Positions 5,414 to 52,503 of a DNA stretch of 64,000 nucleotides are shown here, piece by piece (the stretch's first letter is position 1; each line of letters starts with the position of its first letter). The notes under the pieces were generated by a model, which was not told the DNA's origin, ran no database searches, and saw nothing but the letters and a program-made list of their open reading frames with translations. Both the position numbers and the translations under genes were made by a program. Origin of the DNA: Parachryseolinea silvisoli (lineage in GTDB: Bacteria; Bacteroidota; Bacteroidia; Cytophagales; Cyclobacteriaceae); NCBI RefSeq assembly GCF_021190955.1, contig NZ_JAIOAO010000002.1, positions 806,001 through 870,000 on the forward strand, written 5' to 3'.

Positions 5414-5431
5414 GGATATTAGTTTACAGGG

Positions 5432-5467: not shown

Positions 5468-5476
5468 ATGTATAGG

Positions 5477-13063: not shown

Positions 13064-13087
13064 AACATGTATCGGTTTATGGTACAA

Positions 13088-13485: not shown

Positions 13486-14064
13486 ATGGAGACCCCGCAA
13501 CAACATATTCAGTCAGATGAGCAACTGCTGCAGTCCTTGCAGCAGGATAGCCGCCAGGCATTTAATGAATTGTATTTCAGGCATTGGGAGAATCTCTACC
13601 GGGCGGCCTATTCAGTGTTACGCGACGAAGACTCGGCCAAAGACATCGTACAGGAAGTATTCTTCAGTATCTGGAAAAAACGTCACACCCAGCAAATCCG
13701 CCAGTTGTCTGCCTATCTTTTTCAGGCGGTAAAGTTTCAGGTGGCGCGCCAGCTGCGGCACGGTAAGTTGTTGGATATTCATGTAGAGCGGCTTGGCCAC
13801 CTGCACACAATGAACACGACGGAGGAATCACTCCATGCCTCTGAGCTCGATGCGCTGCTCGAAACAACCCTGGGCAAATTGCCGGAGCGTTGCCGCGATG
13901 TCTTTTATCTAAGCCGCTTCGAACAGCTCTCGAATAAAGAGATCGCGCAACGTCTCAACCTTTCTACACGCACCGTGGAGTGGCATATCTCCAATGCGCT
14001 GAAACATCTGCGGCACACCATCGAGAACACCTTCCTGTTATTGATTCTATTTATGTTGCACTAA
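13486..14064 (+). CDS. ECF-type RNA polymerase sigma factor (Bacteroides expansion family)
   Basis: A 192-residue sigma-70 factor of the extracytoplasmic-function group. Region 2 spans about residues 25-95 (FNELYFRHWENLYRAAYSVLRDEDSAKDIVQEVFFSIWKK, seen in parts). Region 4 spans about 125-180, with the helix-turn-helix LSNKEIAQRLNLSTRTVEWHIS. The last 14 residues are strongly hydrophobic (NTFLLLILFMLH), a possible membrane-contact tail. It is followed by a FecR-type anti-sigma gene and then susC/susD. By analogy with the FecI/FecR system, it should turn on this uptake locus when the outer-membrane receptor senses its ligand. Confidence 0.93.
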   Translation: METPQQHIQSDEQLLQSLQQDSRQAFNELYFRHWENLYRAAYSVLRDEDSAKDIVQEVFFSIWKKRHTQQIRQLSAYLFQAVKFQVARQLRHGKLLDIHVERLGHLHTMNTTEESLHASELDALLETTLGKLPERCRDVFYLSRFEQLSNKEIAQRLNLSTRTVEWHISNALKHLRHTIENTFLLLILFMLH

Positions 14065-14186
14065 CACGCGTTGCGTGTGCAACGTGTTATGCCCAGGTTA
14101 TGGGTATTATGATTCTATTATTTGATGATTTTATGGCCCGTGTATCCGCCCGTTCCTGACACTATAGGACGTGTAAACACAGGTAC

Positions 14187-15176: not shown

Positions 15177-15226
15177 CCAATGCCTATGCGATAAAAGACT
15201 ACCAAACAACCCCTACTCAAAAAAGA

Positions 15227-15258
15227 AAGCCCATCGCTGCGGGAACAGAGATGGGCCC
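15227..15258 (+). promoter_or_regulatory. Hairpin between fecR and susC
   Basis: GCCCATC at 15229-15235 pairs with GATGGGC at 15250-15256. Only C follows, with no T run, so it is more likely a leader structure or processing site than a terminator. Such stems before susC could set the ratio of regulator to receptor transcript; this is inference. Confidence 0.4.
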
Positions 15259-15294
15259 GACCCTAAAGATTGTAAAACCTTTAAAGCCTGATTC

Positions 15295-18200
15295 ATGCGC
15301 TTGAAATTACTCAAAATATTGATGTTCGTGTCAAGAAAACTGATCCATGTTTTTGTGTGGCACATCGTCGCCATGCAATGTTTGCTTGCGGCACCTTCGA
15401 ACGGCCAGGACCTGGAGGAGGTGAAGATTACCCTGAACCTGAAAGATGCGGCCCTGACAGAGGTTTTCTCTGCCATCGAAACCCAAACCGACTATGTGTT
15501 TGGCTATAACAGTCAGGTAAGGAAAATTAAAAAACGTTTCACATTTCAGTCGTCCAAAATTTCGATTGCCGATATCCTGCGTGCCGTATCGAAACAGGCG
15601 GACCTGAAATTCAAACAAATCAATTACAACATCACCGTTTCGTCCAAAAGTCCGACAGCCTATGTTGAACCTACATCGAATACCGATGTGGTGATCACGG
15701 GACAGGTGACCGATGCTGCTACCGGCGAGTCCATGCCCGGTGTAAACGTTATTGTAAAAGGCACGAGCATCGGTACCTCTACCGACGTGGACGGCCGCTA
15801 TACACTCAATGTACCCGACGACGGTATCGTTCAGTTTACGTTTATAGGATACTCTACTGTGGAAGTAGTGGCCGGTACGAAAACCACGATCGACGTACAG
15901 CTCAAGACGGATTCAAAATCACTTGAAGAGCTCGTGGTGATCGGCTATGGTACGGAGCGTAAGGCAAACCTCACGGGCTCAGTCGACCAGGTGAACGGCG
16001 AGGTATTTGAAAACCGGCCGGTGGCCAACGTGTCGCAAGGCTTGCAGGGGTTGATTCCCAACCTGAACATTACGCCGGAGGATGGTAAGCCCATTCAATC
16101 ACCCACGTATAATATCCGCGGGATAACGTCTATCGGTCAGGGTGGTAGTGCATTGATCTTGATCGATGGTGTGGAAGGCGATCCGCGCATGCTGAACCCA
16201 CGCGACATTGCCAACGTGTCCGTGCTAAAAGATGCGGCGTCCGCCGCGATCTACGGCGCGCGCGCGGCCTTTGGCGTGGTGCTGATCACCACCAAGAAGC
16301 CGGCAGTAAACAAGATGACGGTAGACTACAGCACGAACTTCTCGTCGAAGAGCCCAACCACGGTTCCCGATCTTGTCACCGACGGCTATCAACAAGCGAT
16401 GATCTTCAACGAGGCGTGGACGGCGTGGAACGACTACTCACAAACACCGCAGAACGTTAACAAAACCTTGAAATTTTCGCCCGCGTATCTCGAAGAATTA
16501 AAGCGCCGGTCAGAAGACCCTACACTACCAAAAGTAGAAGTGGGTCCGAGTGGCGAATATGTATACTACGGCAACACCGATTGGTATGATCTGCTGTATA
16601 AAGATCACACCACCGCCATGGAGCACAACCTCTCGGTTTCCGGCAGCACCGAAAAGGCAAGCCTCTACGTAACCGGTCGTTATTTCAAGCAGGATGGTCT
16701 CTTTCGTTACAACTCGGACGACTTTAAGATGTATAACTTCCGTGTGAAAGGAACGGTCCAGGTAACGCCGTGGCTGCAGTTGGAAAACAACACGCAGTAC
16801 TCGGACATGAAATATCACAACCCACTCAATACGGGCGAAGGGGGCAGCATCTGGCGTAACATAGCCGACGAAGGCCACGTCATGTCGCCCATGTTTAACC
16901 CCGACGGCACGCTGACGTATTCAGCGGCATATACCGTAGGCGACTTCTGGTATGGCAAGAACGGTATTGATATGAAGAACCGCGTGCTGCGGAACACAAC
17001 CGGTTTTACCGCCGAGTTCTTTGACAAGAAATTTCGTGTGAAGGGCAACTTTACGTACCAGAACACCGACTCCGCGCGGAAATTCATTCGCGTGCCGGTG
17101 CCGTACAGCAGACGCCCCGGTGTAATCGAGTATGTCGGTACGGGTACCAATGACATACGCATCGCTAACAGCGTGGCACAATATATTGCTACCAACATTT
17201 ACGCAGAGTACGAAAACACCTACCACGAGAAGCACTATATAAAGGGATTGATCGGGTATAACTACGAGCAGTCTACATTGGAAGGCTTGTCAGCGCAGCG
17301 CAACGGACTTATATACAACGGTGCGCAAGACATCAACCTGGCGCTGGGCCAGTCGTATACCACCATCGGTGGCTGGGACAAGTGGAATGTGCTGGGCGGT
17401 TTCTTCCGGTTGAACTATCACTTCAACGACAAGTACCTGGTGGAAGTGAACGGCCGCTACGACGGTTCTTCCAAGTTTCCCACGCACGAACGCTTTGCAT
17501 TCTTCCCGTCGATATCAGCAGGCTGGCGTGTCTCCAACGAATCGTTCTGGCATGTATCACCGAATCTTATTTCCGACTTGAAGCTGCGCGCTTCCTATGG
17601 TTCCCTGGGTAACGGTAGCATTGCCTCGTATGCTTTCCAGGAGAAGTTCGCCATTCGGCAGGCCAACCTGGCCCTCGGCGGTGTAAAGCCTCCGTATACG
17701 TCACAACCCAACGTACTGCCAGATGGTCTCACATGGGAAACATCGACGACGCAAAACATTGGCCTGGATCTGTCGATGGTACGAAACCGGTTGACGCTAA
17801 GCGCGGATGCATACATTCGCAAGACAACGGATATGTTCACCGTAGGCAGAACCCTGCCGAAGGTCTTTGGTACCGACGTACCGAAAGGCAACTATGCTGA
17901 CTTGAAAACCACGGGTTGGGAAATTGTACTGAATTGGAATGATGAAGTTAATGTTGGCTCCAAGACGTTGGGGTATGTCGTACGCCTGACGCTGGCCGAC
18001 AACCAGTCAGTCATCGAGAAGTATAACAACCCCGACAAAAAGCTGATCGACTACTATGAAGGCCAGAAAGTAGGCGAGATCTGGGGGTACGAAACAGAAG
18101 GTTTCTATGAGTCAGTGGAGGACATCGCGAATCATGCCGACCAGACGTTAATCAAATCCTCTACCAGTGGCAAAACCCTGCCGGGTGACATCAAGTTCCG

Positions 18201-39063: not shown

Positions 39064-39588
39064 CTACAACATTTTGGCAAGCGCTAATCCCTCTTCCCAC
39101 GGGCCAAACCCTGCGTCAACATTGACATGGCCTGCGTCGCCGATGTTGACAAGGGTACTTCCCCAATTCTTCGCAAACAGTGTTGCACGTTCCAATGTTA
39201 CCCACGGATCGTTTGTGCTGGTGACCATGATGGTTTTGAAGTCGATGCGCTTCTTCGGCATTTTGTCGAATCCTTTTATCGGAAAAGTATACAGGGGGGA
39301 CTCCATGTCGCTTGGTGCTACGAGCAATGCGCCGCGCACCCGTTTGCTATAGTGTGCGGCCCAATGCGCGATCGTGGAGCAGCCCAGGCTGTGCCCGATC
39401 AGCACAACGTCGGAAAGGTCATGGTTTTGTAAGGCGGTGTTGATGGTCGCGATCCATTCTGCGCAGTCTGGCGCTTCCCATTCCTGTTGCTCGATGCGCC
39501 GCGTGTTGCGGAGTGTTTTTTCAAAATGGGTTTGCCAATGTTCGGGACCGGAGTTTCCCAGGCCGGGAACGATGAAGTAGTGTGTCAT
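39064..39588 (-). CDS. RBBP9/YdeN-family serine hydrolase
   Basis: A 174-residue alpha/beta hydrolase. The family features are the N-terminal FIVPGLGNSGPEHWQTHFE, in parts, the nucleophile elbow GHSLGC (S67), an aspartate in TSTNDPWV near 130 and the histidine in GDAGHVNVDAGFG near 154. The YdeN/RBBP9 group are small serine hydrolases without a lid; natural substrates are not known. Its ATG overlaps the stop of the DUF488 gene by four bases (ATGA), so the two form a translationally coupled pair. The cytoplasm is the likely location, as no signal peptide is present. Confidence 0.9.
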   Translation of the reverse strand: MTHYFIVPGLGNSGPEHWQTHFEKTLRNTRRIEQQEWEAPDCAEWIATINTALQNHDLSDVVLIGHSLGCSTIAHWAAHYSKRVRGALLVAPSDMESPLYTFPIKGFDKMPKKRIDFKTIMVTSTNDPWVTLERATLFAKNWGSTLVNIGDAGHVNVDAGFGPWEEGLALAKML

Positions 39589-40109
39589 ATTCGATTTCCA
39601 AAAAGATCTTGTAATCCTTTTCGCAAGGTCTGCATGACGGCGGTATGGGTTTGTAATCCGCCGTGCTCGTCGATGTGCATGACGTCGATCTGTCGGGTCA
39701 CGAGTGTCTCACCGATGAGTCGCGTGCGATGGCAGTCCTCCGGTTTACTTTCCGCGCACAGGATGGCCAGTGCAATGTCTCTGTCGTACGCTGTTTGCAA
39801 GCGGGCGATGCCTTGCTGGTAAAATTCTTTCTCTGCGACGAGCGCGTAGTTTATTTTTTGATCGATATAACAGGAGGGGTCTTCCGGCCGGCCGCCGAGT
39901 GTATCCCCGAGATAGACATAGGTAATGCCGCGTGTCTCTAACGACGCTGCAAGAGCCTCGCGATTAAACTGCGGATTGTAGCGCGAGTAAGGGCGGGAAC
40001 GGACGTCGGCGAGATACCGGATGGAATATCCTTCCAGCAGATCCAGCAACAGCGTAATGGGTCGGTTGCCATGACCGATAGTATAAAGTGGTTTCTTCGG
40101 CGCTGTCAT
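39585..40109 (-). CDS. DUF488-family protein
   Basis: A 174-residue cytoplasmic protein. I chose ATG 40109, since MTAPKKPLYTIGHGNRP is the typical opening; an earlier ATG at 40178 lies inside a region used as the promoter of the divergent SWIM gene. Family motifs are YTIGHGNR, LADVRSRPYSRYNPQFN and LLCAE-type CAESKPEDCHRT(RL), the last with the cysteine and histidine that recur in DUF488. Roles in nucleic-acid or damage responses have been suggested for the family, but none is established. It is co-translated with the RBBP9-like hydrolase and transcribed away from the five-gene SWIM-MoxR-VWA operon. Confidence 0.87.
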   Translation of the reverse strand: MTAPKKPLYTIGHGNRPITLLLDLLEGYSIRYLADVRSRPYSRYNPQFNREALAASLETRGITYVYLGDTLGGRPEDPSCYIDQKINYALVAEKEFYQQGIARLQTAYDRDIALAILCAESKPEDCHRTRLIGETLVTRQIDVMHIDEHGGLQTHTAVMQTLRKGLQDLFGNRI

Positions 40110-40198
40110 ACGACAAGAGGTACGAAGATAAATTAAATTCCAGGAACGACTTGCATCTGCCTGCGCGGTTCTATTCATTTAAGGATCATTTTGCAGCA

Positions 40199-41512
40199 AT
40201 GGATTTTTCGGAGGAACAAGTTCTCGCGATGGCCCCGGACGAGTCGTCCAAAAAGTCGGGAAAGGAACTGGCAAACGCATCGAAGTGGGGGAAACGCGCC
40301 TGTAGTGAGCGGGCCTTGTGGGGCGAATGCCAGGGCAGCGGCAAGCTGCCATATCAGGCACAGGTCGACCTGGCGGCAGTGGCGTTTAAATGCACATGTC
40401 CCAGTCGCAAGTTCCCCTGCAAGCACGGATTGGGACTCATGCTGCTCTACGTGCGCGATAAAAAGCTCTTTACGGAAACACCCGAGCCGGACTGGGTAAC
40501 CGACTGGCTAGACAAACGTTCAGCGCGGGAAGAGAAAAAAGTCGAGAAGAAGGAAAAGGGAGCGAAGGTCGATCCGGAGGAGCAGGCGAAGCGACAGGCC
40601 ACGCGGCTCAAGCGCGTGAAGGAGGGCATGGCGGATCTTAAACTCTGGATTAAAGATATTGTTCGCAATGGCCTGCACGCCTTGTCGGACCGAGACGCGA
40701 ATTACTTCGAGGCAACGGCGCGGCGGATGGTTGACGCCCAGGCTTCCGGCCTGGCCGCCATGGTGCGACAGCTTGGTGCGATCAACCGGTTTCAGGATGG
40801 TTGGCAGGGTGCGTTTCTCGAGCAAATGATTCGTATATACCTGGTGATAGAAGGATTCAGTCGCCTGGACCAGTTGCCGGAAAACCTGCAGGCGGAGCTT
40901 CGTACGTGGGTGGGCTTTGCCCAGAGCCAGGAAGAGGTGAAAGCCGGTGCTGGTGTACGTGATACCTGGATGGTGTTGTCGCGTCGGTCGGAACAGGAGG
41001 ATAACCTCATGGTGGAGCGTACGTGGCTGTTTGGCACCACGACACAACAATATGCATTGATCTTGCAGTTCTCTGTCCGCAACGCAGTGCCTGAGCTCAC
41101 GCTCATGCCCGGCACGTGCATCGATGCGGAGCTATGTTATTTTTCCGGCGCTACGCCGCGGCGGGCGTTGGTACGCCAGCAGTTTGGTATGGTTGAGCCG
41201 GGTGTTGTGAAGGGATTAAAGAATTGGCACGAGGTGGCCGACATGCTGGCCGCCGTGCAAATGACAAACCCGTTGGTGGGTGCGAGTCCGGTGATCATCG
41301 ACGGCGTCATACCGGTGCGCGACGGCAGCAACCGCTGGTTATTAAAAGATGCCGAAGGCCATGGCGTGGTGCTGCAAGGCAATGACGACCGTGCCTGGAA
41401 GCTGATGGCCGTCAGCGGCGGTACTCCCCTGCGGCTTTTTGTTTTGGGCAGTGCGCAGGCATTCGAGCCCCTGGGTGTATGGATCGACGAACATTACGTG
41501 GCATGGGCATGA
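40199..41512 (+). CDS. SWIM zinc-finger protein of the MoxR-VWA operon
   Basis: A 437-residue protein. I chose ATG 40199 because MDFSEEQVLAMAPD is the typical start; a frame from 40088 runs back across the divergent DUF488 start. The SWIM motif CxC...CxH is at C65, C67, C74 and H76 (KCTCPSRKFPCKH), followed by GLGLMLLY. SWIM domains bind nucleic acid or protein through one zinc. A charged linker, rich in E and K, spans about 105-145. The rest is helical and then a beta-rich C terminus. It is the first gene of a five-gene operon and could be the part that recognises a target. Confidence 0.88.
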   Translation: MDFSEEQVLAMAPDESSKKSGKELANASKWGKRACSERALWGECQGSGKLPYQAQVDLAAVAFKCTCPSRKFPCKHGLGLMLLYVRDKKLFTETPEPDWVTDWLDKRSAREEKKVEKKEKGAKVDPEEQAKRQATRLKRVKEGMADLKLWIKDIVRNGLHALSDRDANYFEATARRMVDAQASGLAAMVRQLGAINRFQDGWQGAFLEQMIRIYLVIEGFSRLDQLPENLQAELRTWVGFAQSQEEVKAGAGVRDTWMVLSRRSEQEDNLMVERTWLFGTTTQQYALILQFSVRNAVPELTLMPGTCIDAELCYFSGATPRRALVRQQFGMVEPGVVKGLKNWHEVADMLAAVQMTNPLVGASPVIIDGVIPVRDGSNRWLLKDAEGHGVVLQGNDDRAWKLMAVSGGTPLRLFVLGSAQAFEPLGVWIDEHYVAWA

Positions 41513-43005
41513 AGCATTGGGAAACGATACAACAACATGCGATGCTGGGCACGGCACGCGCACCCCTTACGATCGCTGATCTTCCGGCAACCATTGCCGG
41601 CGAGCTGTCGTGGACACCGATTGATGCCGAGGAAGATTTTCTGCGGCTGGCCGGCGTGGCTTGGCAATATGGCCAGACGGGCAGATTGCCATCGGCAATA
41701 TCGACGGTAACATCAGTGGCCGCGCCCGAAGAAAAACCGTATAGCTCGTCGCAGGCGGCGAATGAGCTGCAATCGCTGGTAGAGGATGAGTTATATACGT
41801 TAGTGCGGCTGTGGCTTGAATATTGTCAGGCCGCCGGCCAGTTGGCGAGACCTGAAATCTTGCCAGCATTACTCGACCTGGCGATACGTCGTCCAGAGTT
41901 TCGTACGATGATTACCACAGTGGCCGGCAATCGTGGTCAGTGGCTGATGCGCCTCAATCCTGCCTGGCGTATCGATACGCCGGCAGAAGACGACACCACC
42001 GTGTGGCAGACCGGTAAACCGGAAGCGCGCCGCGCCTTGCTGGCCCACATTCGTCAAACAGACGCGCCCGGCGCGCTGGTGCTGCTGCAAAGTACATGGG
42101 CAACGGAGAGTGCGGCCGATAAGGTGGCGTTCCTGAACATCTTGCAGGCGCAGGCTTCGGATGCCGACTTGCCCTGGCTGGAAAGTTTACAAGAAAAGGG
42201 ACAGAAGGTAACGACTGCGATCACCAATGTCTTAAAACATATACCCGGATCAAAAATTGTCACAGCGTATCAGGACGTGCTTCGTCAGGCCTTTGTCATG
42301 CGCACGGGTAAGGCGCTGTTGGGCATGTTGAACAAAACATCGGTGGAGATACAGGAAGCGGTGGCTATACCGGCTGAGATCTTTACCACCGGCGTTGAAA
42401 AACTGAGCAGTAACAAACAGATTACCGACCAGCAATATATCCTGATCCAACTGGTTATGGCCGTGCCGCCGGTATTCTGGCAGACGCAGCTGCAACAAGC
42501 AGACGCCCGCGCGGTCATTACACTATTGCAAAAAGAACAACACACGGCACTCTATCTGCCCGCACTGGCCGATGCAGCCGTCACCTTCCGCGATCTCACC
42601 TGGGTACGGACATTGCTCGATCATGGCGACGAGGTACTGATCGACTCCGCCATCGTGTTGTTGCTAAAAGCGCTGCCGGTAGCAGAACGTATGACCTGCG
42701 CTGCCCGCTTCCTGCCACGCCAGCCACAGGCCATCATAGAACTCTTACTGGAACAGGATGAGCCGTGGGATATCGCGCTGGCAAGGGCTATTATAGCGTA
42801 TACGGCCGGTGAAGTATATACCTATAACCGTACATTTTACCGGCAGGCTGTGCATAATATACCCGTGGAGCTGCTCTCGTATATCGATACGTTTACGCCA
42901 GCGGAGGAAGCCAAAAAACCATACTGGCGGACACAAGCCAACGAGCTATACCGGCTTGTGTCCTGGAAACAACAATTACAGAAATCATTCTCGCAGATAA
43001 ATTAA
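41509..43005 (+). CDS. DUF5691-family protein
   Basis: A 498-residue, mostly helical cytoplasmic protein with no recognised catalytic motif. It begins MKHWETIQQHAMLGTARAP, a conserved opening in this family as I recall it. Helical hairpins of 30-40 residues recur (about 130-400), such as ARRALLAHIRQTDAPGALVLL and DLPWLESLQEKGQKVTTAI, which suggests a HEAT-like scaffold. The ATG overlaps the SWIM stop codon (ATGA, 41509-41512), so translation is coupled. The gene is followed by the MoxR gene after 14 bases. A scaffold or adaptor role in the ATPase machine is inference. Confidence 0.8.
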   Translation: MKHWETIQQHAMLGTARAPLTIADLPATIAGELSWTPIDAEEDFLRLAGVAWQYGQTGRLPSAISTVTSVAAPEEKPYSSSQAANELQSLVEDELYTLVRLWLEYCQAAGQLARPEILPALLDLAIRRPEFRTMITTVAGNRGQWLMRLNPAWRIDTPAEDDTTVWQTGKPEARRALLAHIRQTDAPGALVLLQSTWATESAADKVAFLNILQAQASDADLPWLESLQEKGQKVTTAITNVLKHIPGSKIVTAYQDVLRQAFVMRTGKALLGMLNKTSVEIQEAVAIPAEIFTTGVEKLSSNKQITDQQYILIQLVMAVPPVFWQTQLQQADARAVITLLQKEQHTALYLPALADAAVTFRDLTWVRTLLDHGDEVLIDSAIVLLLKALPVAERMTCAARFLPRQPQAIIELLLEQDEPWDIALARAIIAYTAGEVYTYNRTFYRQAVHNIPVELLSYIDTFTPAEEAKKPYWRTQANELYRLVSWKQQLQKSFSQIN

Positions 43006-43019
43006 TCACGACCGATACC

Positions 43020-44102
43020 ATGAGCACCATCCTTCGTCAACATGCCGAGCAACTGTTTGCCGCCGAACTGGAAGAACTGAAAAAGAACGATGCCGACAAG
43101 CGTCCACCGAACTGGCTGATGTCACCGCAGGCAGTGGTGACCTACCTGATGGGCGGTAAGCTCAAAAATGGCTTTGAAGTATCGCCGAAGTATATCGGCA
43201 ATCGCAGATTGATCGAAATAGCGGTCGCCACACTGACAACCGACCGCGCCTTGTTGTTATACGGCCTGCCAGGTACGGCGAAGTCGTGGGTGTCGGAACA
43301 CCTCGCCGCGGCGATCTCGGGGGACTCAACCATGATCATACAAGGCACGGCCGGTACGAGCGAAGAATCTGTTCGGTATGGATGGAACTATGCCCGCTTG
43401 TTAGCGGAAGGCCCGTCAGAGAAAGCGCTGGTCGAGACCCCGGTGATGAAGGGCATGAAAGCCGGCAAGATCGTGCGGCTGGAAGAGCTGACGCGTATTG
43501 GCTCTGACGTGCAGGATACACTCATCACCATCCTGTCGGAGAAGACGCTGCCGGTGCCTGAATTAAGTATGGAGGTACAGGCCGTGAAGGGCTTTAACCT
43601 GATCGCGACGGCTAACAACCGTGACAAGGGTGTAAACGAATTGTCGGGTGCATTGAAGCGCCGGTTTAATACCGTCATCCTGCCATTGCCAGACAGTATG
43701 GAAGAAGAGATCGACATTGTGCGCCGTCGCGTGCAGAGCTTTGAAAAGATCATGGAGCTTCCCGCCGAGCCACCGGCGGTAGCGGAGATCAAACGCATCG
43801 TGACTATTTTCCGCGAATTGCGCGCGGGTGTCACCCTGGATGGAAAGACCAAACTGAAAGTACCGTCCGGTACACTCAGCACGGCCGAAGCTATATCGGT
43901 CGTGAACAGCGGTATGGCCATGGCGGCGTACTTTGGTGATGGTACGTTGAAAGCGCCCGACCTGGCGGCGGGCATAGTCGGAGCCGTTGTAAAAGACCCT
44001 GTACAGGACAAGATCGTATGGCAGGAATACCTCGAGACCGTGGTCAAGCCGCGTGACGAGTGGAAAGATATTTACCGCGCTTGCCGCGACCTTGGTATAT
44101 GA
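43020..44102 (+). CDS. MoxR-type AAA+ ATPase
   Basis: A 360-residue AAA+ ATPase. The Walker A loop is GLPGTAKS (82-89). The Walker B segment is IVRLEELTRI (about 151-160), with EE in place of DE. Sensor-1 is ATANNRDKG and the arginine-rich GALKRRFN supplies the sensor/finger region. MoxR proteins act with VWA partners as chaperones that remodel or insert metal into client complexes. Here the VWA partner is the fifth gene of the same operon. The stop codon overlaps the start of the DUF5682 gene (ATGA, 44099-44102). Confidence 0.92.
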   Translation: MSTILRQHAEQLFAAELEELKKNDADKRPPNWLMSPQAVVTYLMGGKLKNGFEVSPKYIGNRRLIEIAVATLTTDRALLLYGLPGTAKSWVSEHLAAAISGDSTMIIQGTAGTSEESVRYGWNYARLLAEGPSEKALVETPVMKGMKAGKIVRLEELTRIGSDVQDTLITILSEKTLPVPELSMEVQAVKGFNLIATANNRDKGVNELSGALKRRFNTVILPLPDSMEEEIDIVRRRVQSFEKIMELPAEPPAVAEIKRIVTIFRELRAGVTLDGKTKLKVPSGTLSTAEAISVVNSGMAMAAYFGDGTLKAPDLAAGIVGAVVKDPVQDKIVWQEYLETVVKPRDEWKDIYRACRDLGI

Positions 44103-46372
44103 GTATACACATTCTGGGTATACGGCACCATGGGCCTGGATCGGCGCGGAATGTAAAGACATTCCTGGAAAGGCTGCAGCCGGATATGATCCTGGTAGAA
44201 GGGCCGCAGGAAGGCGACGACCTGCTGCGGTGGTCGCAACACAGCGAGCTCAAGCCGCCCGTGGCGATCCTGGCATTTCGACCCGACAAGCCGGCGCACG
44301 CTGTATTTTATCCGTTTGCCGAATTCTCGCCGGAGTGGCAGGCAATTCAACATGGCGCAACGAATAGCGTACCCGTGCGGTTTATGGACTTGCCGCTGGT
44401 ATACCGGTTTGCGTTCGAGTCGGAGCAAGCGTCGCCGGCCGAAGGGCTGGAATCAACCGGTACACCGCCTGTGGAAGAAGAACACGTCGAAGCGCTTCAT
44501 GATCATCGTGACCCGCTGCGACATCTGGCAGAGGCGGCCGGGTTCAACGATGGCGAACGCTGGTGGGATCAGATGTTCGAGCAACGGGTAAACAACGACG
44601 ATATATTTGAGGCGGTAGGCGAAGCCATGCGCGCGCTGCGGCAGACGCTGCCCAACCGCGAAAATCGTACGGAGCAACTGCGCGAAGCCTATATGCGCAA
44701 AATGATCCGGCAGGCGGAGAAAGAGGGCTATCAAAAGATTGCCGTAATCTGTGGTGCCTGGCACGCGCCTGCACTGGAGACGATGCCCAAACAAAAAGAT
44801 GATGAAGCCCTATTGAAGGGCCTGACGAAAGTAAAGGTAGAAACAACCTGGATTCCGTGGACCTACGACCGCCTGTCGTTTGCCAGCGGTTATGGTGCGG
44901 GCATTCTGTCGCCGGGATGGTATCATCATGTATGGAATTTCCCGAACGACGACGGCACGCAGTGGATGACGAACGTCGCCCGCCTGTTTCGAAGCCGCGA
45001 CATCGATACCTCGGTGGCACACATCATCGAGGCTGTGCGCCTGGCCGAATCGTTGGCCTCTTTGCGCGGCCGGAGCAAAGCCGGACTGGACGAGCTCAAC
45101 GAGGCTGCCCTGGCGGTGTTGTGTGGCGGCGAGCCGATCTTGCTTGAACTGATCCGCGAGGCGCTGATCGTAAGCGATACGATCGGCACGGTGCCGTCGG
45201 CTATTCCCAAACCGCCGCTCCTCCAGGATGTTGAGAAAACGCAGAAGCGGCTGCGCATGCCGGCGGAGGCGGGTATAAAAGAGCTGCTGCTCGACTTGCG
45301 TGAATCGCTGCACCTGGAACGAAGTATATTTCTGCACCGGTTGTTACTGCTAGAGATTACCTGGGGACACCTGCAACACGTGCGCGGCAAAGGCACCTTT
45401 AAAGAGCAGTGGCAGCTGCGGTGGGAACCCGAATACTCCATTCGCATCATCGAAAAAGGCAACTGGGGCAATACCCTCGAAGAGGCTGTTACGCAATATG
45501 TAGCCAACGAGGCGGGTGAGGCGGCCACACTCGGTGTGGTCAGCGGGCTGTTGGAAAAAGTAATACCTGCGGAGCTCCCCCGCGCCACGGAGGCGCTGAT
45601 CGCGCGGATCGATGGCCTCGCGGCGGCGACGGGGGACGTGCTACAACTATTGGAAGTGCTGCCGTCCCTCGCTACTGCATCGCGCTACGGCAACGTGCGT
45701 CAGACTGACCAGGAGATGCTGCTCGGAATTTTGCAGTCCATGATCGCCCGGGTATGCGTGAGCTTACCGCCGGCGTGTGTGTCGATCGACGACGATGCTG
45801 CGACCACCATCACGGTACACCTGCACCAGTTAAGTGATACGATCGCCCTGCTGGATATACCCGAGCAGCGACAAGCCTGGTACGAGACATTGCAGCAGAT
45901 TGCTGACCACCGTCAGGCAGCACCGCTGGTATCAGGCTATAGCACGCGCCTGTTGGCCGATGCAAAGGTGATCGACAGTGAAGCGTTGGAAGCACGCTTC
46001 GCGCGTGCACTCTCCCGGGCAGAGAACCCTGCGGCAGCGGCTTCGTGGATCGAAGGATTTCTCAAGGGCAGTGGCTCCCTGCTGATACTTGATTTGCGTC
46101 TTTGGAGTCTGGTCAATCGCTGGGTGCGCGACCTGCAGGAGCCGGACTTTGTGGCGCTGTTGCCGCTCATGCGGCGGACGTTCTCGCAGTTCTCGCATGC
46201 GGAGCGACGCAAGATCGGTGAGAAGGCGCGACAAGAGGATGCGGGCTTAGCGCCTGTCGAGGTACTTGATACCACTGCACTCGATCCCACGCGCGCCCGG
46301 CAAGGACTGCCGGTTATACTTCAATTGTTGGGCCTGCAGCGCAGTGGCATAGCGACAGATAAACCAGCCTGA
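44099..46372 (+). CDS. DUF5682-family protein with TraB/TIKI/EreA-like motifs
   Basis: A 757-residue protein that starts MSIHILGIRHHGPGSARN; ATG 44099 overlaps the MoxR stop. The N-terminal 230 residues carry motifs that resemble the TraB/TIKI/EreA/ChaN group: GIRHHGPGSA (8-16), PDMILVEGP (28-36, with a putative catalytic E34), LREAYMRKMI (about 194-203) and IAVICGAWHAP (215-224). In that group the histidines and glutamate bind metal or act as base. The C-terminal 500 residues are helical. I infer a metal-dependent hydrolase fused to a large helical region. This would be the effector of the operon, but no substrate is known. Confidence 0.82.
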   Translation: MSIHILGIRHHGPGSARNVKTFLERLQPDMILVEGPQEGDDLLRWSQHSELKPPVAILAFRPDKPAHAVFYPFAEFSPEWQAIQHGATNSVPVRFMDLPLVYRFAFESEQASPAEGLESTGTPPVEEEHVEALHDHRDPLRHLAEAAGFNDGERWWDQMFEQRVNNDDIFEAVGEAMRALRQTLPNRENRTEQLREAYMRKMIRQAEKEGYQKIAVICGAWHAPALETMPKQKDDEALLKGLTKVKVETTWIPWTYDRLSFASGYGAGILSPGWYHHVWNFPNDDGTQWMTNVARLFRSRDIDTSVAHIIEAVRLAESLASLRGRSKAGLDELNEAALAVLCGGEPILLELIREALIVSDTIGTVPSAIPKPPLLQDVEKTQKRLRMPAEAGIKELLLDLRESLHLERSIFLHRLLLLEITWGHLQHVRGKGTFKEQWQLRWEPEYSIRIIEKGNWGNTLEEAVTQYVANEAGEAATLGVVSGLLEKVIPAELPRATEALIARIDGLAAATGDVLQLLEVLPSLATASRYGNVRQTDQEMLLGILQSMIARVCVSLPPACVSIDDDAATTITVHLHQLSDTIALLDIPEQRQAWYETLQQIADHRQAAPLVSGYSTRLLADAKVIDSEALEARFARALSRAENPAAAASWIEGFLKGSGSLLILDLRLWSLVNRWVRDLQEPDFVALLPLMRRTFSQFSHAERRKIGEKARQEDAGLAPVEVLDTTALDPTRARQGLPVILQLLGLQRSGIATDKPA

Positions 46373-46380
46373 TTAATCCG

Positions 46381-47532
46381 ATGGAAGAAAACGAAAAAAC
46401 GACAGCACACCTGGAACGGTGGCGCATGGTACTCGGCGGAAATGAGAACGATGGCACCGGCGTAACATTGACCGGTATAAACCTGCAGATCGACCAGACC
46501 CTGGAAGCACTATATGATGCTGAAAGACAGGGTAGCCTGGGACCCTCTTCACCCAACATCAGCCGCTGGCTGGGTGATATCCGTACCTATTTCCCTAACA
46601 CGGTGGTGCGTGTCATGCAGCAAGATGCCTTCAAGCGGCTTAACCTCACGTCGATGTTGTTGGAAAAAGAGATGCTGGAAAATGTCGAGCCCGATGTACA
46701 CCTGGTCGCGACGCTGATGACGCTGAGCCACGTCATACCCGCGAAGACCAAAGACACGGCCCGGCAGGTTGTACGTCAGGTGGTGGAGGCGCTGCTGAAA
46801 AAACTACAGCAGCCCACGCAGCAAGCGATCGCCGGCAGTCTGAATCGTGCGGCGCGCAACCGGCGGCCCCGGCATAACGAGATCAACTGGCATAGCACCA
46901 TACTCAAAAATCTGAAACACTATCAGCCCAGGTATAAAACTATTATACCCGAAGAACGCATTGGGTATGGCAAGCGGCGACGTTCGTTGAAAGATGTCGT
47001 ATTGTGTCTCGATCAAAGTGGCTCGATGGGCACTTCGGTGATCTACTCCGGTATATTCGGTGCCGTGATGGCATCTATACCGGCGATTCAGACGCGCATG
47101 GTGGTATTTGATACCAACGTGGTGGATCTTACAGACGAGCTGCAAGACCCGGTCGAGCTGTTGTTTGGTGTACAGCTGGGCGGCGGCACCGACATCAACC
47201 GCGCCCTGACATACTGCCAGCAGATTATTCAACGGCCTGCCGATACGGTACTGGTACTGATCACGGACTTGTACGAGGGCGGTGATGCCGCCGAAATGCG
47301 CAAACGTGCCCGCACATTGGTGGAGGCCGGTGTACAGGTAGTAGTACTGCTGGCGCTGAACGACGAAGGAGCACCGTCGTATGATCATGGTAACGCCGCC
47401 TATATGGCGACGCTGGGCATACCGGTGTTTGCCTGTACACCCGATAAATTTCCCGACCTGATGGCGGCGGCGCTGAGCAAACAGGACATTGGTATGTGGG
47501 CCGCGAAGGAAGAGTTGGTAACAAAACACTAA
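46381..47532 (+). CDS. VWA-domain protein (MoxR partner)
   Basis: A 383-residue protein. A helical N-terminal part (1-200) precedes a von Willebrand A domain (about 204-375). The MIDAS metal site is complete: DQSGS (D211, S213, S215), a threonine in GGGTDIN near 258, and an aspartate in LITDLYEG near 288. Such VWA proteins bind MoxR ATPases and hold the client. The arginine-rich stretch RAARNRRPRH (about 157-166) may contact nucleic acid or a partner. It starts eight bases after the DUF5682 stop and ends the five-gene operon. Confidence 0.9.
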   Translation: MEENEKTTAHLERWRMVLGGNENDGTGVTLTGINLQIDQTLEALYDAERQGSLGPSSPNISRWLGDIRTYFPNTVVRVMQQDAFKRLNLTSMLLEKEMLENVEPDVHLVATLMTLSHVIPAKTKDTARQVVRQVVEALLKKLQQPTQQAIAGSLNRAARNRRPRHNEINWHSTILKNLKHYQPRYKTIIPEERIGYGKRRRSLKDVVLCLDQSGSMGTSVIYSGIFGAVMASIPAIQTRMVVFDTNVVDLTDELQDPVELLFGVQLGGGTDINRALTYCQQIIQRPADTVLVLITDLYEGGDAAEMRKRARTLVEAGVQVVVLLALNDEGAPSYDHGNAAYMATLGIPVFACTPDKFPDLMAAALSKQDIGMWAAKEELVTKH

Positions 47533-47577
47533 GCGATTGGATATTATGCCCCAAGGCCGGATATTTGTGCCGGAGTG

Positions 47578-48729
47578 ATGAGCATGGAGGCAAAGGATAA
47601 GAATCGGGTTTTTCTAAGCGTTTTCTTTTTTCTATCGGGCATTTGTTTTTCGACCTGGGCGTCGCGTATTCCGACGATCAAGACGACCTTTCAATACAAC
47701 GAAGCCGAGCTGGGTACCATACTGATCTTTATGCCGATCAGCTCACTCATCGGTCTGCCGATCTCCGGCTGGCTTGTGTCGCGCTATGACAGCCGTATTC
47801 CCTTAGTCGCCGGATTCATCATGCTATCGGTTGCGCTCGCCTGCATCGGCTGGGCTTCTACCAGCCTGGCCCTGGTGGCATCGATCTGTCTCTTTGCCTT
47901 TAGCCTGCGCATGCTCAACATCTCGGCTAACACCCAGGCGCTCGCCTTGCAGCAGCTCTTTCAACGCAAGATCAATGGCTCGTTTCACGGTTTGTGGAGC
48001 ACAGGCGGTATCGTGGGGGTAAGTATTTCCACCGCGCTTATTGCATGGGATGTGCCTATGAATATCCACCTGTCGTGCATAGCTGTACTGGCATTGCTCG
48101 TGACGGCATATGCGTATCGTTTCCTCATCCGGAACGACCGCTCCACCTCCGGCAACCGCATTGTGTTGAGCAAACCCGATCCCTATATTATGTACCTGGG
48201 CCTCCTGGTCTTCTTTGCTTCTGTCTGCGAAGGAGGTATGTTTGACTGGAGCGGTATATACTTCAAAGAAGTCGTGCACGAAGAGATCTTTACATTGGGG
48301 TACCTCAGCTTTATGATCTGCATGGCGCTGTCGCGGTTTGCGTCGGACCGTATCGTCGAGCTGATCGGCATGACCCGTACCTATATCATGAGTGCCTCGC
48401 TGGTCGTGACAGGCATTGCATTGGCGGTATTGTTCCCCATGTTCTGGCCATCGTTACTCGGTTTTTGTTTTGTAGGCCTGGGCACTGCGGCCGTCATTCC
48501 GATGACCTATACCCTGGCCTCAGGCTCGCGCAAATATTCCCCGGGCATGGCGATTTCCATCATCACCACCTATGGCATCGCGGGTGTATTTCTCGGCCCG
48601 CCACTCATTGGCTACATCGCTCACGCATTTAGCCTACGTGTATCGTTTGTGGCCTTTGGACTTTCTGGCCTGATGCTGATACCGATTTCGCAACGGTTTT
48701 TCCGCCATCAGCGAGCACTCGACACATAA
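47578..48729 (+). CDS. MFS transporter
   Basis: A 383-residue inner-membrane transporter of the major facilitator family with about 12 hydrophobic helices. The first half has FSTWASRIPTIKTTFQYNEAELG and the loop 2-3 signature region GWLVSRYDSRIP; the second half carries SRFASDRIVELIGMTR. The group, YbjJ-like, often has sugar or unknown substrates. I chose ATG 47578; GTG 47575 and ATG 47584 are alternatives. It is 45 bases after the VWA gene on the same strand, but a break in function is likely because the five genes before it form a set found together elsewhere. Confidence 0.88.
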   Translation: MSMEAKDKNRVFLSVFFFLSGICFSTWASRIPTIKTTFQYNEAELGTILIFMPISSLIGLPISGWLVSRYDSRIPLVAGFIMLSVALACIGWASTSLALVASICLFAFSLRMLNISANTQALALQQLFQRKINGSFHGLWSTGGIVGVSISTALIAWDVPMNIHLSCIAVLALLVTAYAYRFLIRNDRSTSGNRIVLSKPDPYIMYLGLLVFFASVCEGGMFDWSGIYFKEVVHEEIFTLGYLSFMICMALSRFASDRIVELIGMTRTYIMSASLVVTGIALAVLFPMFWPSLLGFCFVGLGTAAVIPMTYTLASGSRKYSPGMAISIITTYGIAGVFLGPPLIGYIAHAFSLRVSFVAFGLSGLMLIPISQRFFRHQRALDT

Positions 48730-49894: not shown

Positions 49895-50779
49895 TTAGCG
49901 CACCTTGGCCATTGCCCGCACAGGAAAAGTACCCACACCTTTAAACTTGGGTGGCACAGCGCTAAAGGTAAAGCCTTCGTGCGGCAGCAGGTGCAGGTTG
50001 CAGAGGTGCTCGACAATGAGAATGTCGGCTTCCAGCAACGTCGTGTGCACGGGTCGATCGTTGCCCGTGGTATTGTCGATGTTGTGTGAATCAATACCTA
50101 CCAACGCTACGTTGCAGTCACGCAGGTACGCAGCGGCTTCAGCCGTTACGTAGGGGTGGTGCTCATAATACGTTGAGGTATTCCAATGCTCAGCCCAGCC
50201 GGTATGGATTAATACCGCCCGGCGACGGATCTCGTAGTTGCGTACGTGGTCGAGTGTAACGGCGAGTGTGTCGGTATAGGGCACGGAAATGACAATGCCT
50301 TCCAGGTCGGTAAAGCTTTCCAGCGTGATCTCCGATAAATCTTTACCATGCTCAAAGCGGTGAAAGGGGCAATCCAGATATGTACCCGTGTTCGTGACCA
50401 TTTCAATTTTCCCGATTTGAAATTCTGTGCCCGGCGCGTAACGCGTCCGCGATTCCGCGCGGCTGAGATAGTCGCAAATGATCGGGGCGGGGAGGCCTTT
50501 GTATGTTACCAGGCCGTTCTCGATGGTATGGCTCAGGTCGATGAGTAAAGGCCCGCGCGTAGCATCCACGGCTTTGCGTTTGTGTGACTCGGTCAGGATC
50601 TGCTTGTTGAGAATCTTCGTCTCGCCGACCATAAGCAGCCGCATGTCCGCTACGATGTAGTCGGCCAGAGCCTGATCGCTGATGTCGTCGCCGACAATGT
50701 CCAGGCGGAATCCTTCTCCTTTTATCCCGCCGCCATTGGTAAAGAAAATCTCAAAGTCGAATGCTACGCGTTTTTCCAT
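49895..50779 (-). CDS. Cyclase-family protein with altered metal motif
   Basis: A 294-residue protein of the cyclase / kynurenine-formamidase fold. Residues 1-70 form an extra N-terminal domain (FDFEIFFTNGGGIKGEGFRLDI in parts) that standard formamidases lack. The family motif HxGTHxDxPxH reads NTGTYLDCPFH (130-140): N130 and Y134 replace two zinc-binding histidines, while D136 and H140 remain. Metal use and activity may therefore differ from kynurenine formamidase. Similar NTGTYLD variants exist, so this may be a separate subgroup. Its start codon lies inside the end of the WYL-PhyH gene (16-base overlap), so the two are translationally coupled. Confidence 0.85.
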   Translation of the reverse strand: MEKRVAFDFEIFFTNGGGIKGEGFRLDIVGDDISDQALADYIVADMRLLMVGETKILNKQILTESHKRKAVDATRGPLLIDLSHTIENGLVTYKGLPAPIICDYLSRAESRTRYAPGTEFQIGKIEMVTNTGTYLDCPFHRFEHGKDLSEITLESFTDLEGIVISVPYTDTLAVTLDHVRNYEIRRRAVLIHTGWAEHWNTSTYYEHHPYVTAEAAAYLRDCNVALVGIDSHNIDNTTGNDRPVHTTLLEADILIVEHLCNLHLLPHEGFTFSAVPPKFKGVGTFPVRAMAKVR

Positions 50780-52503
50780 AAGTCATATTTCTCCGCCCAC
50801 GTTAAACCGTTGGGCAATGTCGTACTGTTAAATTCGAGGTGTATCACACGCCGGTGTTTGCCTTGTGTGGCTTTTGATGACGCATGCAGCAGCAATGGCC
50901 GCATGACGTGCACACCACCCGCCGGTACATCGCAGCATTGGGGCACGGTGTTTTGTGTCAGGAACCTGATCTCATCATCCGATAACTTCTTATGATGGGA
51001 GCCAGGCAATATTTGTAGCGCGCCGTTTGTCTCATCCGTGTCGTCGAGGTGAATACGCAGCGTGACCGTATCTTTTAAGATGTCTTCCGGTGGGGTAACG
51101 CCGTGTACATCGTTCTTGCGGGTCCAGCCAGTAAAGCCTTCCGTCGCGATCTTCTCGGTGACGTTAATGATAATATCCTGATGCCAGGTGACGTACCAGT
51201 TCGCGTCGGGCGACTTGTCAAAGAATATAGCTTTGGTCAGGAACAAGTTCGGATTTATTTTCTTTACTACCTCCAACAAATTCGGTGTAAAGAGCATTTG
51301 TTTGAGTGTGGGAATCTCTTTCAACACATGCCGGATGGCGTATGTGTCGGCGCCCTCGCCGGTGGCCTTCAGATACAGGTAAATAGTATTCCGGATCTTG
51401 TCGACTTCTTTCCGCCGGTATATATGATGCAGCGTAGTTGATCCGCGGTGGATAAACCTTTGCAGATTGTTCTGGAGCGATTTGGAATTAAACTCGTAGA
51501 GATAGGAGTCGAGTGCATTGTTGAGGATATCGCGGATGCGTCGTTTCAGACGTGCCGGCTCTAATACCTGGACTCGGTCGCCATATCCCAGAAGCTCCCG
51601 TTCCAATTCAAAATTAATTTGTACCTGCAAAGATACCAGGGGCTCGCCGGTGGAGGACTCGAGAATCTCCTGCGAGTGGTGCAGTGGTTTGGTTTGTACA
51701 TAGGGCAGTGTTTGCCGGTCGAACTTGAGCAAGACCCGCTCCGTCGCAAGGCCGGGACTAACGCTCACCCCGATCACATGCTGGAAATGGTCGTGCAGGT
51801 TAAAGTTGCCGGGGCCAATATACGTTAGTTTACAATCCTGAATCTCGACGATCCGGTCCAACGCCAGATTCAACAACGGTTCACCCCGCTTCCGCACACC
51901 GAGTACAAACCAGCGGTTGCGATACTCCTTAAGGTAATACGCGTGGAAATGAAAGACCGATGCCTCGCGTGCCTTAAATGACTGATAGGTTAGGTCGACG
52001 GCACGCTTGTTAACAATGGCTTGATACAGCGTGTCGATGTGTTCAAGCCCTTTCAGATTGTCATTCTTTTCGAAGTCGATGACCGGGGCTTGGTTGGTTT
52101 TAGCAGAGCGGATCTTATTTTCCAGTCGCTGGACCATGCCGCCCAGGTCTTGAAAGTGGCTAAAGCCTTTAAATTGGCGCAGAATCTCTACCGCCTCAGT
52201 CAGACGACCCAGGTCCTGGTCGGTTACCGGACTATTGGTGATCGAATACTCAGGGTCTTCGTAGGTATAATATTTCTTTTCCAGGACCACAATGGGGGCG
52301 TTGTAGCCCAGCTTGTCGCTGCGCATCAACTGGATGTCCATTTGTATAGTACGGCGGCTGATGCCTTTGTCGATCCCTTCGTACTCATATAGTGCTTCGG
52401 AGCAGGCGTCCAGCAGGTCGTCCAGTGTCCAGCGGCGGTACCGGTTGCGCAGGCAGGTGTCGATCGTGCGAAAACGGATCAGGGCATTGCGATTGACAGG
52501 CAT
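50764..52503 (-). CDS. WYL-domain regulator fused to PhyH-type 2OG-Fe(II) dioxygenase
   Basis: A 579-residue protein, one continuous frame. Residues 1-335 are a WYL regulator of Bacteroidota length: an N-terminal winged-helix part (FRTIDTCLRN ... ISRRTIQMDIQLM), the WYL core (ASVFHFHAYYLKEYRNRWFVLG in parts, 182-202) and a WCX-like end (ARLKRRIRDILNNALDSY). Residues about 350-579 are a PhyH-like dioxygenase with iron ligands H441 and D443 (TWHQD), H540 (LLLHASSKA) and R552 (HRRVIHLEF) for 2-oxoglutarate. Each half matches full-length stand-alone proteins. The divergent neighbour is rtcB, and a cyclase gene overlaps its end. Confidence 0.9.
   Translation of the reverse strand: MPVNRNALIRFRTIDTCLRNRYRRWTLDDLLDACSEALYEYEGIDKGISRRTIQMDIQLMRSDKLGYNAPIVVLEKKYYTYEDPEYSITNSPVTDQDLGRLTEAVEILRQFKGFSHFQDLGGMVQRLENKIRSAKTNQAPVIDFEKNDNLKGLEHIDTLYQAIVNKRAVDLTYQSFKAREASVFHFHAYYLKEYRNRWFVLGVRKRGEPLLNLALDRIVEIQDCKLTYIGPGNFNLHDHFQHVIGVSVSPGLATERVLLKFDRQTLPYVQTKPLHHSQEILESSTGEPLVSLQVQINFELERELLGYGDRVQVLEPARLKRRIRDILNNALDSYLYEFNSKSLQNNLQRFIHRGSTTLHHIYRRKEVDKIRNTIYLYLKATGEGADTYAIRHVLKEIPTLKQMLFTPNLLEVVKKINPNLFLTKAIFFDKSPDANWYVTWHQDIIINVTEKIATEGFTGWTRKNDVHGVTPPEDILKDTVTLRIHLDDTDETNGALQILPGSHHKKLSDDEIRFLTQNTVPQCCDVPAGGVHVMRPLLLHASSKATQGKHRRVIHLEFNSTTLPNGLTWAEKYDLWKNA

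Follow-up and report, generated by a model that had tools for sequence, protein, structure and literature searches.

A five-gene MoxR–VWA operon of Parachryseolinea silvisoli as the Bacteroidota version of Deinococcus ddrTUVWX and a relative of Escherichia coli yehLMPQ

A stretch of 64,000 nucleotides from Parachryseolinea silvisoli (contig NZ_JAIOAO010000002.1, positions 806,001 to 870,000 of the forward strand; hereafter the window) carries at positions 40199–47532 a five-gene operon which, judged by homology, is the Bacteroidota version of ddrTUVWX, the radiation-response operon of Deinococcus deserti. On this basis, its SWIM zinc-finger protein corresponds to DdrT, its DUF5691 protein to DdrU, its MoxR ATPase to DdrV, its DUF5682 protein to DdrW and its VWA protein to DdrX. 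By the same kind of comparison, the operon is a relative of yehLMPQ of Escherichia coli K-12. It is not a new system: it is an orthologue of a published radiation-response operon. The best explanation of the whole, to which we give a probability of about 60%, is a MoxR–VWA machine that would work on a putative DUF5682 hydrolase, be aimed by the SWIM protein and serve in a stress response.

The genome to which the window belongs measures 7.9 Mb, and the rows nearest to the window in a tree of DUF5682 proteins are Chitinophagaceae. The five frames lie head to tail on the plus strand, each with an ATG start and an in-frame stop, and comprise the following features.

40199–41512, plus strand: SWIM zinc-finger protein, putative DdrT orthologue, 437 aa (PF04434 SWIM, 21.3 bits against a cut-off of 19.6)
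40391–40426, plus strand: predicted SWIM zinc ligands C65, C67, C74 and H76 (CxCx6CxH), invariant in 44 of 44 sequences of alignment A3
40952–41503, plus strand: C-terminal beta region of the SWIM protein, residues 252–435, perhaps a tandem OB fold (AlphaFold2 and weak Foldseek rows)
41509–43005, plus strand: DUF5691 protein, DdrU orthologue by position, 498 aa (PF18944, 289.1 bits, E 1.3e-85)
43020–44102, plus strand: MoxR AAA+ ATPase of YehL type, putative DdrV orthologue, 360 aa (AAA_5 PF07728, 119.2 bits)
43251–43667, plus strand: AAA_5 ATPase domain of MoxR, residues 78–216 (PF07728, E 1.8e-34)
44099–46372, plus strand: DUF5682 protein, putative DdrW orthologue and YehM relative, 757 aa (PF18934, 894.5 bits, E 7.2e-269)
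44099–44857, plus strand: N-terminal alpha/beta domain of the DUF5682 protein, residues 1–253, with a Tiki/TraB-like motif set (G7-x-x-H10, E34, R195-E196, G219-x-x-H222)
46381–47532, plus strand: VWA (CoxE-like) protein, putative DdrX orthologue and YehP relative, 383 aa (VWA_CoxE PF05762, 174.7 bits, E 2.4e-51)

ATGA overlaps join the SWIM and DUF5691 genes (41509–41512) and the moxR and DUF5682 genes (44099–44102), and gaps of 14 and 8 bases separate DUF5691 from MoxR and DUF5682 from VWA, respectively. DUF5691 and DUF5682 have one match each in the window genome, and a profile search for DUF4132 gave no match in it. An earlier note on this DNA, made from the letters alone, had described one operon of five genes with precisely these overlaps, gaps and Pfam families and had taken it for a MoxR–VWA machine, which is right by homology. 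It had also stated that the set had no known function; that holds in so far as the D. deserti operon is of unknown function, but the set was already in print as ddrTUVWX, and its ATPase is closest to YehL.

The link to Deinococcus draws on published descriptions. In D. deserti, Deide_18730 bears a radiation response motif and heads a putative five-gene operon of uncharacterised proteins, among which Deide_18710 is a MoxR-like ATPase and Deide_18690 a VWA protein, and de Groot et al. 2009 suggested a chaperone system (PMC2669436). The operon has been named ddrTUVWX, is IrrE-dependent and has a radiation/desiccation response motif (RDRM) upstream; Deide_18730, a SWIM zinc-finger protein, belongs to the >10-fold radiation-induced class, and Deide_18690, 18710 and 18720 belong to the >5-fold class, with Deide_18700 unnamed in that source (PMC5552922). 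As we read Table 4 of the same article, D. gobiensis, D. maricopensis and D. peraridilitoris also have ddrTUVWX with an RDRM, and D. radiodurans, D. geothermalis and D. proteolyticus lack the operon. In D. taeanensis, an extra 78-aa gene lies between ddrV and ddrW (PMC9510100). Our locus L098 encodes SWIM, DUF5691, AAA ATPase, a 78-aa protein, DUF5682 and VWA, and because it agrees gene for gene with that description, the 78-aa gene included, we take it to be ddrTUVWX of D. taeanensis. Apart from this extra gene, the window and L098 share the same five genes in the same order, with SWIM first, MoxR third and VWA last. By blastp, the window proteins match those of D. taeanensis at 32% identity for SWIM (450 columns, 1e-50), 69% for MoxR, 39% for DUF5682 and 53% for VWA; the D. 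taeanensis DUF5691 protein was recognised by profile (62 bits), and the window DUF5691 had no blastp match to it. In L098, an RDRM with a score of 23.2 lies 20 nt ahead of the SWIM start; the next site in 18 kb scores 8.9, and the best of 60 shuffles reaches 13.9. This site was found from the sequence after we had read about the D. radiodurans DdrO regulon and before we knew the ddrTUVWX literature.

The comparison with E. coli gave 40% identity between MoxR and YehL over 356 columns (2e-78), 35% between VWA and YehP (5e-78) and 28% between DUF5682 and YehM (5e-41). E. coli K-12 yehL-yehM-yehP-yehQ thus has MoxR, DUF5682 and VWA orthologues in the window's order, together with a SWIM gene, yehQ; the two differ in that the SWIM gene comes last rather than first and that a DUF4132 gene (yehI) lies upstream. 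DUF5691 had no match in the E. coli control genome, and in a profile comparison of SWIM with YehQ the zinc finger alone aligned. A relationship between DUF5691 and DUF4132 was sought by profile and rejected, nothing credible being found. Among the seven MoxR subfamilies, one is named after YehL and is delimited by sequence together with local gene order (PMC3893208); the placement of the window MoxR in it follows the 40% identity and the YehM and YehP relatives alongside, not a tree of the seven subfamilies. Two layouts can be told apart. Type A has the window's order, and type B has MoxR, DUF5682, VWA and SWIM with DUF4132 before or inside the set, as in E. coli K-12 (yehI, yehL, yehM, yehP, yehQ), an E. 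coli plasmid, Agrobacterium vitis, Iodobacter and Proteus. DUF4132 also lies in or beside 9 of 80 type-A loci, all of them Bacteroidota (assigned by similarity to YehI and Pfam-checked in L018 only). In Streptomyces atratus, DUF5682 and VWA form one protein of 1255 aa as annotated, and the last gene matches SWIM only below the cut-off. The E. coli plasmid, a conjugative IncF plasmid (L104, NZ_CP103756.1; 180,962 bases), carries the chromosomal order from yehI through yehL–yehQ to btsS and mlrA.

We then asked how far the five genes travel together. A DUF5682 profile scan over one genome per species confirmed at least 570 relatives; retaining only the best 80 loci makes the set lean to close relatives. 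With six loci from the window's phylum, E. coli and the window itself, this made 88 loci, in which genes were labelled by iterated profiles. The order SWIM–DUF5691–MoxR–DUF5682–VWA was complete in 63 of the 88, in seven phyla as labelled by record title, where many records are metagenome-assembled genomes and several incomplete loci are short contigs. Three of these full sets have one or two genes split into two frames, and two have DUF4132 between DUF5682 and VWA. Within the 80 loci, full sets numbered 33 of 44 in Bacteroidota, 6 of 12 in Cyanobacteriota, 9 of 9 in Pseudomonadota, 5 of 6 in Chloroflexota, 3 of 3 in Verrucomicrobiota, 2 of 2 in Planctomycetota, 1 of 2 in Melainabacteria and 0 of 2 in Acidobacteriota. 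Beyond the 88 loci, all five families occur in Nonomuraea (L096), Deinococcus (L098), Rhizobium and Methylobacterium records, and in Nocardia (L097) SWIM and DUF5691 share one open frame, followed by MoxR, DUF5682 and VWA. The occurrence of the same genes in actinobacteria that the earlier note named is borne out by Nonomuraea and Nocardia, and so is its idea of a module with fixed order and wide spread, which it would have abandoned had the set been confined to close relatives; across loci and genomes, it is not.

To examine co-inheritance, we took an evenly drawn sample of 198 genomes of the window's phylum, one of them the window's own. The identical 7 genomes gave matches for each of DUF5682, MoxR, VWA and SWIM; for one pair of families, the chance of this is 4.7e-13 with relatedness ignored. 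DUF5691 was found in the same 7, under the cut-off in one of them (G162; 23.6 versus 27 bits), with one weak extra genome (G014; 20.4 bits). The SWIM-family match of G162 covers positions 137–438 only, without the zinc finger, and the VWA frame of G166 contains one stop. In G037, G162 and G178, the module genes lie apart or on different contigs, and linkage alone therefore does not explain the shared occurrence. Searches were made for 15 of the 25 incomplete loci in their genomes: a YehL-type MoxR was present in all 15 and DUF5691 in 13, 12 of them above the cut-off. The two genomes in which it was missing are G198 and G204, and the locus of the latter, L035, gave a weak match with our own profile. 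Patchiness was likewise seen in the phylum to which a cyanobacterial locus belongs (12 of 292 genomes, 11 above the cut-off). These comparisons indicate that the five-protein module is real, all-or-none in the phylum sample and spread across many phyla.

Among the 63 full sets, mean pairwise identity was 75% for MoxR, 66% for VWA, 48% for DUF5682, 40% for SWIM and 26% for DUF5691. The distance matrices of the five families correlate at 0.74–0.90, and at 0.55–0.81 for pairs with differing phylum labels, four unlabelled Bacteroidota sets being treated as a separate group. In the DUF5682 tree, the labelled Bacteroidota group in a single clade (100), Pseudomonadota enclose two Verrucomicrobiaceae (99), and Cyanobacteriota and Chloroflexota are intermixed with each other and with one Pseudomonadota (80–91); the tree is a quick one without a mixture model and has long branches, and its mixing of phyla is no proof of transfer. 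We read these patterns as a module that was probably inherited jointly for the most part, with some transfer between phyla. No family except DUF4132 recurs widely beside it in the flanking genes of the 80 loci, and 20 hand-picked adjacent or inserted genes carry unrelated Pfam domains, none in two of them. Single loci show departures of their own. About 7.2 kb with several genes separates MoxR from DUF5682 in Scytonematopsis (L057, 2786–9991). In Fusobacterium (L100), the DUF5691 position (4941–6854) is occupied by a 637-aa protein for which Pfam gave nothing credible, and the VWA gene is followed by a 1234-aa protein of no named family (11932–15636). MoxR–DUF5682–VWA is also present in a faecal record labelled UNVERIFIED 'Bacteriophage sp.' (L105, MT835988.1), which is more likely a bacterial contig than a phage.

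The DUF5682 protein is likely a metallohydrolase, to judge from its conserved residues: its N-terminus carries a motif set like that of the Tiki/TraB superfamily (TraB, PrgY, GumN), with weak support from the fold. The AlphaFold2 model (mean predicted local distance difference test score, pLDDT, 87.5) has an N-terminal alpha/beta domain of ~250 residues followed mostly by helices. H10, E34, R195, E196, G219 and H222 are invariant in 72 of 72 rows (71 proteins); the glycine–histidine motifs of the window protein read G7-I-R-H10 and G219-A-W-H222, and the invariant residues stand at strand ends or within the preceding helix. Eight TraB/GumN proteins of related genomes (alignment A4) show G52-T-x-H55, E81, R247-N248 and G269-x-x-H272. 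Both families thus have, in the same order, two GX2H motifs, a Glu 27–29 residues after the first Gly (27 in DUF5682 versus 29) and an Arg 22–24 residues before the second (24 versus 22). The superfamily pattern was checked on A4. Among viral models (BFVD), the first match of the DUF5682 model was a TraB family protein, with a probability of 1.00, and the TIGR00261 traB model matched very weakly (E 0.18). The difference from the superfamily lies in the mostly helical part of ~500 residues after the motif domain and in sequence profiles that do not connect. We take ChaN and EreA to be kin of the superfamily as well. Sequence searches for solved relatives returned none credible for DUF5682, and none for one TraB protein.

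The putative motor is conserved at its functional positions. In the YehL-type MoxR proteins, all 71 aligned rows (70 proteins) share the Walker A Lys, the sensor Asn and an Arg pair (RR), and all read Glu-Glu at the Walker B position, where Asp-Glu would be usual. For VWA, every one of the 69 rows (68 proteins) has the D, S, S and D of the metal ion-dependent adhesion site (MIDAS), whose threonine position is T in 66 and N in 3, D. taeanensis among the latter. The window VWA protein has VWA-type Pfam matches plus a weak one to YjeF_N (E 0.029). Against the PDB, the window MoxR matched 7 distinct sequences, including midasin (3.5e-12) and NorQ chains (E 8e-5); for the VWA protein, the sequence search gave no solved relative. 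NorQ–NorD, of the CGN subfamily, is likewise a MoxR with a VWA partner; a finger of NorD enters the MoxR pore, and NorQ activity remodels the NorD linker (PMC13036017). The window set differs in its MoxR subfamily, in having three further conserved subunits and in having no nitric oxide reductase.

The C-terminal half of the SWIM protein appears weakly OB-like in its AlphaFold2 model (mean pLDDT 94.3); by sequence search, the protein had no credible solved relative. In the Foldseek search of the PDB, chains of baculovirus LEF-3 and of HIN domains take the first eight rows, RPA appears at ranks 23 and 40 and PrgE at rank 35, and we take all of these to be OB-fold DNA binders (LEF-3 and HIN being tandem-OB). 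Further hints at DNA come from the accessory genes. Directly before yehF, whose protein has a WGR domain, lies a CTGT-N8-ACAG site with one mismatch; we presume molR to be yehF/yehH. E. coli molR is listed as LexA-regulated (PMC11039860, PMC4576408), and D. radiodurans DRA0166 (DUF4132) and DR2173 (WGR) are DdrO targets that rise with mitomycin C in an IrrE-dependent manner (PMC8533742).

Drawing on these elements, we propose that a MoxR hexamer and its VWA partner would form an ATP-driven remodelling pair like NorQ–NorD, one that may drive, load or gate DUF5682 instead of serving a respiratory enzyme; action through VWA on DUF5682 is suggested by the NorQ–NorD analogy and by the single DUF5682–VWA protein of Streptomyces. 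SWIM, with its zinc finger and perhaps an OB-like half, and DUF5691, joined to it in one frame in Nocardia, might form a second, target-recognising arm that would aim the machine at nucleic acid or at protein bound to it. A target on or near damaged DNA is favoured because of the regulation in Deinococcus and the kinds of domain present (SWIM, perhaps OB, and WGR in E. coli). In D. deserti, irradiation switches the operon on through IrrE/DdrO, and as a guess the machine may clear, cleave or remodel proteins damaged or stuck after stress, often on DNA. Homology, gene order, co-inheritance, ATPase and MIDAS residues and fusions are grounded in the sequences, and every step from the word machine onward we infer. 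A sharper version, which we consider quite improbable, is ATPase-plus-protease repair of protein-blocked DNA, in which the MoxR–VWA motor would feed or gate DUF5682 as a Tiki-like metalloprotease, aimed by a SWIM–OB protein at damaged or single-stranded DNA and conserved over many phyla as ddrTUVWX and, in the other layout, as yehLMPQ; SPRTN with p97 offers a functional parallel.

Several results weigh against the proposal of a hydrolase machine acting near damaged DNA. G7 of DUF5682 is kept in 70 of 72 rows and is Pro in D. taeanensis DdrW and in Proteus. The BFVD match to TraB is weak by its other measures (E 3.2e-3; root-mean-square deviation 13.5; template modelling (TM) score 0.43 by target and 0.14 by query), and hhalign of the DUF5682 N-terminus gave probabilities of 0.2% and 3.6% against TraB and ChaN, where the TraB–ChaN control also failed (0.8% and 0.6%); with the cleaner set A4, the values were 0.1% and 3.5%. 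A Foldseek search of the PDB with the DUF5682 model returned 612 rows, none reaching E 0.001, the best 50 being mostly helical-repeat proteins; two Tetrahymena complex IV chains appear among the rows (probability 0.98 and 0.92). The Foldseek matches of the SWIM model are weak too (E 0.009 or worse, TM ≤0.21 by query length), with unrelated beta proteins between them. On the side of regulation, the Deinococcus operon, which radiation induces, carries an RDRM in its promoter, and its upstream region is the only one of 70 in which an RDRM was found; the next best scored 15.2 and the region upstream of the window SWIM gene 4.6. We therefore speak of a homologous operon only and do not claim membership of the radiation/desiccation response regulon (DdrO was not looked for). 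LexA-type motifs gave single hits only: CTGT-N8-ACAG in 1 of 11 upstream regions (Delftia, −339; 0.0 expected), the alpha-type motif in 0 of 3, GAAC-N4-GTTC in 0 of 13 (0.05 expected), the cyanobacterial motif in 1 of 7 (0.37 expected) and, in Bacteroidota, GGA-N5-TCC in 0 of 39 (4.3 expected) and CTAA-N5-TTAG in 1 of 39 (0.08 expected), with the Nocardia row excluded from the scan. As none of the damage-type motifs tested was found at the window operon, a role in DNA damage outside Deinococcus is an extrapolation. The accessory-gene links to DNA damage through DUF4132 and WGR are indirect, because D. radiodurans has no ddrTUVWX and because yehF lies ~8 kb upstream of yehL.

Two other readings keep the machine and change its task. 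The pair could be a dedicated MoxR–VWA chaperone that matures a metalloenzyme or a large complex, as NorQD, CbbQO and RavA–ViaA do, with DUF5682 as client or co-chaperone and stress induction reflecting client repair. MoxR–VWA pairs of known function do this (PMC9976466, PMC13036017), a chaperone system is what de Groot et al. 2009 proposed (PMC2669436), and MoxR and VWA are more conserved than the other three proteins in the 63 sets (75% and 66% versus 26–48%), as expected of a common engine. However, no conserved client gene was seen to accompany the module in the flanks examined: the commonest family among the neighbours is present in 8 loci, at varying distances, and GH20 comes next to the module in four Chitinophaga loci only. 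It would also be odd for a mere client to keep, as the DUF5682 N-terminus does, a hydrolase-like motif set that is nearly invariant, and we regard this reading as rather unlikely. The module might instead be a general stress or protein-quality machine with no tie to nucleic acid, its Deinococcus regulation being local wiring. The 69 upstream regions without an RDRM and the merely single LexA-type sites fit such a machine, and a SWIM domain may bind protein rather than DNA. Against it stand the zinc finger coupled to an OB-like half in the SWIM proteins of type-A sets (one modelled) and the DUF4132 and, in E. coli, WGR proteins that type-B sets bring, such kinds occurring in the damage regulons of two distant bacteria; this reading, too, seems doubtful to us.

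The earlier note had further allowed for a stress or defence role. Stress is possible, radiation regulation being documented for the Deinococcus orthologues; defence is unlikely. A conflict system, anti-phage or self/non-self, of the MoxR–vWA ternary type (Kaur et al. 2020, PMC7159879) would likewise consist of MoxR, vWA and further components and be patchy, as this module is (7 of 198 and 12 of 292 genomes, with phyla mixed in parts of the tree). Its case gains from 36 records in a plasmid collection, several of them chromosome-sized, from a window MoxR score of 26.9 bits for bpMoxR, the beta-propeller-system model, just below the cut-off of 27, and from neighbouring genes: a C5 cytosine DNA methylase gene between MoxR and DUF5682 in Allochromatium (L091, 7832–8779), a type I restriction set after L103, a ResIII helicase after L044 and a DUF488 gene beside the window operon. 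Yet what marks those systems is the variety of C-terminal effector domains on the vWA protein (PMC7159879), whereas here VWA length is nearly constant and the gene set constant. The longest VWA frame per locus spans 308–470 aa in 75 loci, and this narrow range gives no sign of swapped effector domains (domains were scanned in the window and Streptomyces proteins). The other components of the window set are SWIM, DUF5691 and DUF5682 by Pfam, unlike those in the portion of that article used here, whose main text has no SWIM, YehL or DUF5682 (PMC7159879). PADLOC gave 0 matches for four operon proteins and, for MoxR, a weak one to IetA over 32 residues of the ATP-binding region (E 0.0013). The neighbours looked at were not consistently defence genes, and we judge a conflict system very improbable.

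The flanks of the window operon look ordinary, with a Na+/H+ exchanger, a frame without a match, GNAT, a serine hydrolase and the divergent DUF488 gene on one side and MFS, a mechanosensitive channel, a cyclase and a WYL–PhyH gene on the other; an Rfam scan of 39500–48000 gave no match. Run on 8 window neighbours, PADLOC matched the DUF488 and WYL genes. The former (39588–40178, minus strand), 20 bases from the operon, matched the candidate PDC-M45B at 5e-53; DUF488 is widespread, and this match may therefore mean little. The latter (50767–52503, minus strand) is a frame of 579 aa in which a WYL/WCX transcription-regulator part and a phytanoyl-CoA dioxygenase (PhyH) part are fused, which is unusual. 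In the cyclase-family protein (49898–50779, minus strand), the Pfam match begins at residue 80, leaving ~80 N-terminal residues without assignment.

In the literature searched, from which subscription papers and preprints lay outside the scope, no mention of DUF5682 or DUF5691 was found; among the matches listed, two or more of yehL, yehM, yehP and yehQ were named together only in strain and genome-resource papers. For ddrTUVWX, the portions of the sources used give no function beyond the chaperone suggestion of 2009. As far as these searches show, the unification of ddrTUVWX with yehLMPQ, the all-or-none inheritance, the Tiki/TraB-like motif set of DUF5682, the DUF5682–VWA fusion, the single SWIM–DUF5691 frame and the weakly OB-like C-terminal half of SWIM are new. 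The operon is of interest since, among the genes of D. deserti, ddrT falls in the class with the strongest radiation induction (PMC5552922). Its tie to yehLMPQ and to a module of many phyla opens ddrTUVWX to ordinary E. coli genetics, and the motif set in DUF5682 supplies concrete residues to mutate. If the hydrolase reading is true, these genes would encode an ATP-driven metallohydrolase machine that, so far as the literature searches show, has gone unrecognised.

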